A stretch of 64,000 nucleotides of DNA, from contig CAIVRI010000080.1 of assembly GCA_903908265.1 (NCBI GenBank), positions 117,569 through 181,568 of the forward strand, given 5' to 3'. Numbering within the stretch: position 1 is the stretch's first letter; each line of letters starts with the position of its first letter. A program made the position numbers and the translations under genes. This document shows positions 20,720 to 23,043 of the stretch, piece after piece. The stretch is from an uncultured Pseudomonadota bacterium. Lineage in GTDB: Bacteria; Pseudomonadota; Gammaproteobacteria; Steroidobacterales; Steroidobacteraceae. Below the pieces are notes generated by a model. The model ran no database searches, had not been told where the DNA came from, and saw nothing but the letters and a program-made list of their open reading frames with translations.

Positions 20720-20953
20720 ATGGCCGAAAATACGTCACCTACCGCTGCCGGACTAGAACTCAAGAAGCTGGAGAAGCGTCTTGCGGAGCTTATTTCGACG
20801 CTCGACCGCCTCAAGGAAGAGAATCGGTCCCTGAAAATTCGCCAGGAATCGCTCGCTACGGAGCGCGCGGCCCTCATGCAAAAGAATGAACAGGTTCGCG
20901 CCCGCGTTGAAGCCATGATTGGTCGGCTGAAGTCGATGGAGCACGGGACATGA
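20720..20953 (+). CDS. Small coiled-coil protein (TIGR02449/ZapB-like) upstream of zapA
   Basis: LKKLEKRLAELISTLDRLKEENRSLKIRQESLATERAALMQKNEQVRARVEAMIGRLKSME; overlaps zapA start. Confidence 0.8.
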   Translation: MAENTSPTAAGLELKKLEKRLAELISTLDRLKEENRSLKIRQESLATERAALMQKNEQVRARVEAMIGRLKSMEHGT

Positions 20954-21267
20954 GTGATCTGCCCGTCTCCCGCGTCTCGGTTCGGATCCTGGAAAAGGAA
21001 TACCAGTTCTCCTGCGCCCCGGACGAGCGGGCCGCATTGCTCGATTCGGCTGAATACCTGAACGGCGAGATGCGCAAGATCCGCGATACCGGCAAAGTCA
21101 TCGGCCTGGACCGTATCGCCGTCATGGCCGCACTCAACATGGCAAACGAGCTACTGAAATCGCGGGCTCGCGATGCTTCGCTGGATGTCGATGTGGTGCA
21201 AAAACTCCGGCACCTGCGCGAACAGGTCGATGCGGCGCTTGAGCGCGGCCAACAACTCGATCTCTGA
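20950..21267 (+). CDS. zapA: Cell division protein ZapA
   Basis: VSVRILEKEYQFSCAPDERAALLDSAEYLNGEMRKIRDTGKVIGLDRIAVMAALNMANELL. Confidence 0.9.
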   Translation: MSDLPVSRVSVRILEKEYQFSCAPDERAALLDSAEYLNGEMRKIRDTGKVIGLDRIAVMAALNMANELLKSRARDASLDVDVVQKLRHLREQVDAALERGQQLDL

Positions 21268-21334
21268 CAACTATTCTCGCGCTGCCGAGAAGTCCGTCAT
21301 TCTTTCCCGCCCCCTGATCGGTTAGTCTTCGCTC

Positions 21335-21524
21335 TGGCGCCGCCTGCGGTGTTCGACACGGGTCAAGACCTCCCGGCCCTAATTGCGTTACCCCGGGGCA
21401 TGTACTTGCACGGCCATTGAGCATGTCCGCCTCGTTGCGGAAAGCCTTAAGCCTGGCAGTACGCCCCACTTGTTGCTCCGGTCCGGGAGCAACGATTCGT
21501 GACGGCACAGGTGGACGGCGCCGC
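21335..21524 (+). ncRNA. ssrS: 6S RNA
   Basis: Located just after zapA (conserved site). Closing stem GGCGCCGCC(21336..)/GGCGCC(21517-21522), conserved GAGCATGT...GGAAAGCCTTAAG segment, 3' hairpin GTTGCTCC-GGTCCG-GGAGCAAC (21472-21493) analogous to the E. coli 6S 3' hairpin; ~190 nt. Confidence 0.85.
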
Positions 21525-21584
21525 CCTTTTCCCAATGGCCGACCCCATCGTCCGGACAGTCCGGCGATGGTGCGGGAGTAACCG

Positions 21585-22052
21585 ATGAAACATTGGCTGA
21601 TGAAGAGTGAGCCTTCGGTCTTCGGTATCGATGACCTGATGAAGGCACCCAAGAAACGTTCTGCTTGGGACGGCGTCCGCAACTATCAGGTCCGTAACAT
21701 GTTGCGCGACGAAATGCAGGTTGGAGACCTTGCCTTCTTTTATCACTCAAGCTGCGATGAACCTGGAATTTACGGGGTTATTCGCATTGTGAAAGAAGGC
21801 TATCCCGACCACACCGCATTCGACCCATCGCACGATCACTTCGATCCGAAGAGCAAGGCGAGCGACCCCACGTGGTTCATGGTCGATATTGAGTTCATCG
21901 AAAAATTCGAGCGGCCCGTGACGTTGGATAAGTTGCGCGTACATGTCGACAAGCTCTCGGACCTGTTGGTGTTGAAGCGTGGCAACCGACTTTCGATCAC
22001 GCCGTTAACGAATGCTGAATGGCGTTACATCGTGACCCTCGCGGCAAAGTGA
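21585..22052 (+). CDS. EVE-domain (PUA-like) protein
   Basis: MKHWLMKSEPSVFGIDDLMKAPKKRSAWDGVRNYQVRNMLRDEMQVGDLAFFYHSSCDEPGIYGVIRI. Confidence 0.92.
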   Translation: MKHWLMKSEPSVFGIDDLMKAPKKRSAWDGVRNYQVRNMLRDEMQVGDLAFFYHSSCDEPGIYGVIRIVKEGYPDHTAFDPSHDHFDPKSKASDPTWFMVDIEFIEKFERPVTLDKLRVHVDKLSDLLVLKRGNRLSITPLTNAEWRYIVTLAAK

Positions 22053-22097
22053 ATGGTCTTGATGCGTGGGTCGCTACCACATCAAAAAGGTAGTTGC

Positions 22098-22125
22098 TTG
22101 TAATTTAACTTTTTGTGTATATACT
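22098..22125 (+). promoter_or_regulatory. Predicted promoter of the lysine-rich micro-ORF
   Basis: TTGTAA (22098-22103), 16-nt spacer, TATACT (22120-22125). Confidence 0.5.
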
Positions 22126-22160
22126 CCGATCCCGGACTAACCCTTAATTGGAGAACTACT

Positions 22161-22226
22161 ATGGCGACTAAGAAGAAAGCTGCGAAGAAGAAGGCAACGA
22201 AGAAGAAGGCTGCTAAGAAGAAGTAA
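22161..22226 (+). CDS. 21-aa lysine-rich repetitive peptide MATKKKAAKKKATKKKAAKKK
   Basis: Direct translation; GGAG 6-8 nt upstream of ATG; flanked by a predicted promoter and a strong terminator. Below the ORF-track length cutoff. Confidence 0.65.
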   Translation: MATKKKAAKKKATKKKAAKKK

Positions 22227-22280
22227 GCCTTAGAAGTTGCCGGAGATGAAGGTCTCGACCCAACTCTCCTAAACTTCGCT

Positions 22281-22314
22281 GACTGTGCCCGCTTACGCGG
22301 GCACAGTCTTTTTT
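22281..22314 (+). terminator. Rho-independent terminator
   Basis: gactgtgcccgc-ttac-gcgggcacagtc followed by tttttt (12-bp perfect stem). Confidence 0.92.
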
Positions 22315-22383: not shown

Positions 22384-23043
22384 ATGAAAAGCGATGACCT
22401 AAAGCGCCGCGTTGCCGAAGCGGCGATAGCGTACGTACCCGAGGGCTGCGTGCTCGGTGTCGGTACCGGATCGACGGTTAACCACTTCATCGCCGCTCTC
22501 GCCGACCGAAAGATAGAACTCGCCGGTGCGGTGTCTAGCTCCGAAGCCAGTGCGCGACTGCTGTCAGCGGCCGGCTACGAAGTGCTGGATCTCAACGCCA
22601 CCGGCGACCTCGAGGTCTACGTGGACGGCGCAGACGAATCAAATCGGCACCTGCACCTGATCAAGGGGGGTGGCGCGGCACTCACCCGAGAAAAAATTGT
22701 GGCCGCCGCTTCGCGGCGCTTCGTCTGCATCGTGGATCAATCCAAAGTGGTCGACGTCTTAGGCCGCTTCCCGTTACCGGTCGAAGTCATTCCAATGGCG
22801 CGATCGTATGTTGCCCGCCAATTGATCAAGCTCGGGGGACAACCGGTTTATCGCACCGGCGTGGTGACGGACAACGGCAACGTGATCGTGGATGTGCACA
22901 ACTTAGCTATCACCGATCCGAAGGGTCTTGAGGATGCAATCAACGGCATCGTCGGCGTAGTAGCCAATGGTCTGTTCGCACGTAGACCAGCCGATGTACT
23001 GCTGATCGGCACGCCCGATGGCGTACAGACTCTGACCGCCTAA
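22384..23043 (+). CDS. rpiA: Ribose-5-phosphate isomerase A
   Basis: [76 protein letters not shown]. Confidence 0.95.

Follow-up and report, generated by a model that had tools for sequence, protein, structure and literature searches.

In Steroidobacteraceae, a very short gene directly upstream of rpiA encodes a lysine-rich repeat peptide. It is probably the shortest version, shared by the whole family, of a histone H1-like gene that occurs across the order, and its product is presumed to bind polyanions. The gene was analysed within a contig stretch of 64,000 nucleotides (the window), in which the micro-ORF MATKKKAAKKKATKKKAAKKK sits between an EVE-domain gene and rpiA. The encoded 21-mer contains 12 lysines among its 21 residues and no acidic residues. 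The gene is strictly conserved and kept throughout the family, and it lies below the usual annotation length limits; no description of it was found in literature searches.

The micro-gene and its control signals

The initial annotation had described a free-standing gene for a 21-aa repeat peptide, likened to a minimal histone H1 tail that lacks the globular domain, and had given it its own promoter-like sequence, Shine–Dalgarno sequence and 12-bp-stem terminator within ~220 bp. This unit was recovered at 22098–22314, from the promoter to the T-tract (Table 1), and both its signals and its reading frame proved to be conserved in the family. By sequence alone, the scan matches are only modestly above shuffled controls, with two promoters found versus 1.1 expected and four terminators versus 1.7 expected. 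It is conservation in the genus and the family, not the scans, that puts the feature far beyond chance.

In the family alignment (52 loci), upstream conservation is highest in CTTGCTTG, and the invariant core is TGTATATACT...CGGA(C/T)TAA; TGTATATACT is invariant in 52 of the 52 loci, and the promoter and leader together comprise 25 invariant columns. The promoter scan matched TTGTAA-16-TATACT at 22098–22125, and its TTGTAA hexamer overlaps the conserved block without being the best conserved part of it; the hexamer assignment within the block is putative. Transcription would be expected to start near CGGACTAAC, and the CGGACTAACCC leader lies at or just past the expected start site. The terminator stem (22281–22308) consists of 12 pairs, nine of them GC, with a four-base loop followed by TTTTTT, and a terminator-type stem is found in 111 of the 121 unique family loci. 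A 37-aa ORF from an in-frame upstream TTG (22113) was rejected because this start falls inside the promoter block.

Table 1. Features of the micro-gene locus in the window, and three long-form genes from sister families
Feature	Position or locus	Strand	Basis or remark
zapA	20950–21267		Upstream neighbour; named from its own sequence, without a profile
6S RNA (ssrS)	21338–21521	+	Rfam RF00013, 76.1 bits; between zapA and the EVE gene
EVE-domain protein gene	21585–22052	+	Pfam EVE PF01878, E 1.1e-52; upstream synteny marker
Promoter block	22090–22125	+	TTGCTTG at 22094–22100; TGTATATACT ends at 22125; scan match, alignment and model R1
Leader CGGACTAACCC	22133–22143	+	CGGAYTAA invariant in family alignment
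Shine–Dalgarno GGAGA	22150–22154	+	6 nt before ATG; GGAG invariant in 52/52 aligned loci
Micro-ORF MATKKKAAKKKATKKKAAKKK	22161–22226	+	ATG to TAA, 21 aa; family-wide conservation; pN/pS well below 1
3'UTR	22227–22280	+	Variable length; small genus-level stem, paired changes in 11 sequences
Intrinsic terminator GACTGTGCCCGC-TTAC-GCGGGCACAGTC + TTTTTT	22281–22314	+	Terminator scan; family conservation
rpiA, ribose 5-phosphate isomerase A	22384–23043	+	Pfam PF06026, E 8.5e-59; downstream synteny marker
Long form MATKKKSRKKASKRKVAKKRKVTRKK...	L199		169 aa
Long form MATKKRASKKKVASKKK...	L181		150 aa
Long form MAKKPSKKKTSRKKKATTKRR...	L204		195 aa

The gene order is also maintained. Wherever the flanking sequence of a family locus is long enough, rpiA is the next gene, 64–396 nt downstream of the micro-ORF, while zapA lies ~0.8–1.7 kb upstream, usually with the EVE gene in between. 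Genus g19 (L040–L056) has a zapA-to-micro-ORF interval without an EVE match and keeps the micro-ORF and rpiA. The gap between zapA and the EVE gene is ~500 nt larger in most relatives than in the window (21267–21585); at L185 it contains an ORF (153–779) resembling 5-formyltetrahydrofolate cyclo-ligase, which is absent from the window's locus. The 6S RNA is also present in L110, L061, L026 and L242.

Conservation of the gene and selection on the peptide

As MATKKKAAKKKATKKKAAKKK is too short and of too low complexity for protein searches, the gene was traced through DNA, pattern and synteny searches; a protein-level search of the genome itself with the 21-mer gave no match. A DNA search with a 271-bp query over the unit matched all 14 other genomes of the same genus (E 4e-40 to 4e-91) and, with lower scores, most Steroidobacteraceae genomes. 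The pattern TATATACTN{3,9}CGGAYTAA was found in 143 of the 396 genomes of the order, all of them Steroidobacteraceae, and a manual table count gave 143/171 family genomes versus 0/225 other genomes of the order; the reversed control pattern had no matches in the 396 genomes. Several family genomes lacking the exact pattern still match via the DNA search or the rpiA locus. Named carriers include Steroidobacter agaridevorans, Peristeroidobacter soli and P. agariperforans.

The 170 family loci, 121 of them unique, yield 87 distinct ORF DNAs and 32 peptides. Across the unique loci the peptides are 14–30 residues long and end in a lysine run; those listed are built of KKKAA/KKKA units without D or E, and the common forms (MAKAKKKAAKKKAAKKK, MAKAKKKAKKKAAKKK, MAAKAKKAKKKVAKKKAAKKK and MATKAKKSAKKKGGKKKAAKKK) are ~55–65% lysine. 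Variation falls mostly at third codon positions, and the identical 21-mer is encoded by 14 different DNAs. In each length class of the family alignments pN/pS is 0.00–0.36, and over about 20 genera its values remain well below 1, whereas in the +1 and +2 control frames of the same alignments non-synonymous change is not far below synonymous change. The stop codon varies (TAA 81, TAG 28 and TGA 12 among the 121 unique loci) while its position is kept; the ORF ranges from 14 to 30 codons with the lysine tail always in frame, and the leader measures 31–41 nt, irrespective of frame. These observations show that the peptide, rather than the RNA alone, is under purifying selection. Two checks that the initial annotation had proposed, a search for conserved KKK micro-ORFs near rpiA in relatives and a comparison of synonymous with non-synonymous change, both favour a coding unit, and its refuting condition, a frame that is not kept in close relatives, clearly does not apply.

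The same annotation had allowed that the ~180-nt RNA might itself be the product. In that case the unit would yield a small regulatory RNA ending at the terminator, and its KKK codons would be no more than a purine-rich stretch. The compact layout, from a promoter of its own to a terminator, would suit such an RNA, as would a genus-level stem in the 3'UTR, in which four pairs show double-sided (compensatory) change among 11 sequences. Nevertheless, an RNA product is very unlikely, given the third-position variation, the stop codons swapped in place and the length changes that stay in frame. Moreover, the 3'UTR is only 5–26 nt long in many relatives, and sister families hold a long ORF instead. 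As structure, only the terminator and the small genus-level stem are conserved, and a search of Rfam with the unit gave no match, with matches at a chance level only under a relaxed threshold.

Long H1-like orthologues and the evolution of length

Other families of the order have the gene for an (A/T/V)KKK-repeat H1-like protein, mostly of 75–200 aa, in the slot upstream of rpiA. The promoter and leader of these long-form genes, CTTGCTGGAA...TTGTATATACTC...CGGACACCCTGACACGGAGA...ATG, are recognizably like those of the micro-gene, with related leaders of the types CGGACACCC and CGGTTAACCC. Most of the long-form genes shown end in GTGCCCGC...GCGGGCAC or a near variant, and the GTGCCCGC terminator arm is common to them and the micro-gene. 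The micro-gene thus has what characterizes the order-wide gene: the rpiA slot, the promoter and leader, a Lys-rich repeat ORF and a GTGCCCGC-type terminator.

The relationship was assessed with R1, a sequence-only model of the promoter and leader of 52 micro-genes from which the repetitive coding part was left out. In the genome under study, R1 has a single match, the micro-gene itself (22090–22158). Beyond it, the model matches 54 loci belonging to other families or to g11, an outlying genus of the same family (E 5e-13 to 3e-3), and a Lys/Arg-rich ORF follows each of these 54 loci. An automated check of these loci and of one weaker match outside the order recorded a Lys-rich ORF after 54 of the 55 R1 matches; the ORF after the remaining match, L280, begins MAKRPASKKRKK. 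R1 missed nine loci of the order in which a K-rich ORF precedes rpiA (L187, L191, L193, L201, L256, L263, L264, L270 and L277). Outside the order, R1 matched none of 137 genomes of the class, and a K-rich ORF upstream of rpiA was found in one of 28 class loci, the slot usually being empty.

Because a model restricted to the promoter and leader finds both, the micro-ORF and the long H1-like genes are best regarded as orthologues, and the possibility that the K-rich ORFs near rpiA are unrelated, convergent sequences was rejected on the same ground. The description of the micro-gene as H1-like holds for the peptide gene, but had overlooked its long orthologue in the sister families. At L228, from a distant family outside the order (f46), an EVE gene, a 74-aa Lys/Arg-rich ORF and rpiA follow one another, with a weak R1 match (E 0.012); this arrangement may stem from common descent or from transfer. 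No K-rich ORF is present directly upstream of rpiA in L202 and L283 (f12), L196 and L285 (f13) or L194 (f6), where the gene may have been lost or relocated.

The order of a Lys-rich short ORF, a terminator and a gene that is always rpiA also resembles that of a lysine-sensing leader peptide, in which ribosome stalling on Lys codons would control terminator read-through into rpiA. This reading is extremely improbable. In sister families the slot, with the same promoter type and terminator, holds proteins of mostly 75–200 aa, and rpiA does not belong to a lysine pathway. Inspection by eye of the window's 3'UTR revealed no complement to the terminator arm, and hence no antiterminator partner for the terminator/antiterminator switch controlling a pathway gene that marks an attenuator leader. 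The Lys codons are, moreover, AAG-biased (1112 AAG versus 213 AAA in the family loci); the window's micro-ORF contains 11 AAG and one AAA, and AAG makes up 69% in nine neighbouring genes.

Shortening appears to have occurred more than once. In a tree of RpiA, the short forms of genera g43 and g45 (family f15) group in a supported clade with the long-form genera of f15 and are separate from the window's family, around which the tree is too poorly resolved to tell a derived from an ancestral short form. Since these short forms nest with f15 long forms, apart from Steroidobacteraceae, the length of the gene has changed repeatedly, with short forms arising separately in f15. A further case is found in genus g63, where the long H1-like gene at L239 (990–1103) is interrupted at codon 38 by a single in-frame TAG, after which the K-rich part continues intact, while its sister form at L236 is 141 aa; this TAG may represent shortening under way or an assembly error.

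Recurrent shortening, together with the interrupted long form in g63, could be taken to mean that the micro-gene is a decaying, now functionless relic of a longer H1-like gene. Such decay is highly improbable in view of a pN/pS well below 1 over about 20 genera and of the 25 invariant promoter and leader columns, and no K-rich remnant is found downstream of the micro-ORF in the window. A functional gene in its minimal form is the reading that we retain. The result is a natural series of lengths, from ~200 to 14 residues, of one orthologous H1-like gene that keeps a single set of control signals, which allows a direct test of the minimum length of a functional H1-type tail.

Proposed function and relation to known lysine-rich proteins

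By analogy with known lysine-rich repeat proteins, the peptide is most likely an unfolded polycation of small size that would neutralize and coat a polyanion, with nucleic acid as the most probable one. It would be made from its own promoter, stay unfolded and bind polyanions (DNA, RNA and possibly polyphosphate) through charge, not sequence. The long forms would have the same role with many linked charge blocks and could thereby bridge or compact nucleic acid, while the short form would serve as a counter-ion or as a coating. Nucleic-acid binding by the 21-mer is plausible, and it may be too weak a binder for the role of a nucleoid protein.

One further idea is that the 14–30-residue peptide is more than a shortened DNA coat, namely a distinct stoichiometric nucleoprotein component, e.g. 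a ribosome- or RNA-polymerase/6S-associated polycation. Within the order, an H1-like repeat protein would then have been pared at least twice to one functional charge block; we give this a small chance. Partnership with a specific machine (the ribosome, RNA polymerase or 6S RNA), as opposed to general polyanion binding, is likewise unlikely. The peptide is indeed very small, basic and strictly conserved, has its own conserved promoter, adjoins ssrS in the family loci tested and resembles small basic ribosomal peptides in size and charge. However, the number and spacing of its repeats differ among genera, unlike those of a docked subunit, and the proximity to 6S RNA reflects the ordinary zapA–ssrS neighbourhood. 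General polyanion binding remains the favoured role.

Among described proteins, the closest in kind are bacterial H1-like proteins. Hc2 condenses DNA and binds RNA, and its length varies through repeat gain and loss (PMC2848022). The KPAA-repeat peptides of AlgP bind DNA in vitro, and AlgP associates with polyphosphate granules (PMC9239181). The 21-mer has no Pfam or NCBIfam match, as expected at such a length, and does not reach the cut-off of the Hc2 family profile (PF07382/NF038052). As in Hc2, its sequence is made up of short lysine-rich repeats in tandem and lacks acidic residues, but at 14–30 aa (121 unique loci) the peptides fall short of the about 150–240 aa of that family. The PF07382 cut-off was passed at the rpiA-linked long gene in two genomes only (G060 and G076), and low-complexity sequence can match this profile by composition; in six genomes of the window's own genus, no PF07382 match to a second, long H1-like gene was found.

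Hc2/HctB of Chlamydia (PF07382; 165–237 aa) and BpH1 of Bordetella (182–206 aa) share with the gene described here Lys-rich, pentamer-type repeats with Ala, Thr or Val and a variable length. The micro-gene differs from them in its denser lysine (KKK blocks), its genomic slot and a short form without a profile match. The C-terminal KPAA domains of AlgP and PhaF from Pseudomonas are likewise disordered Lys/Ala repeats; however, these tails contain Pro and are joined to an N-terminal domain, whereas the micro-peptide is free-standing, and the descriptions of AlgP and PhaF do not include the rpiA slot. Stand-alone basic proteins of similar size, about 25 aa, are known from the ribosome, namely bTHX and eL41. 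Their sequences are fixed and include Arg and aromatic residues, in contrast to the variable-length Lys/Ala repeat of the peptide described here.
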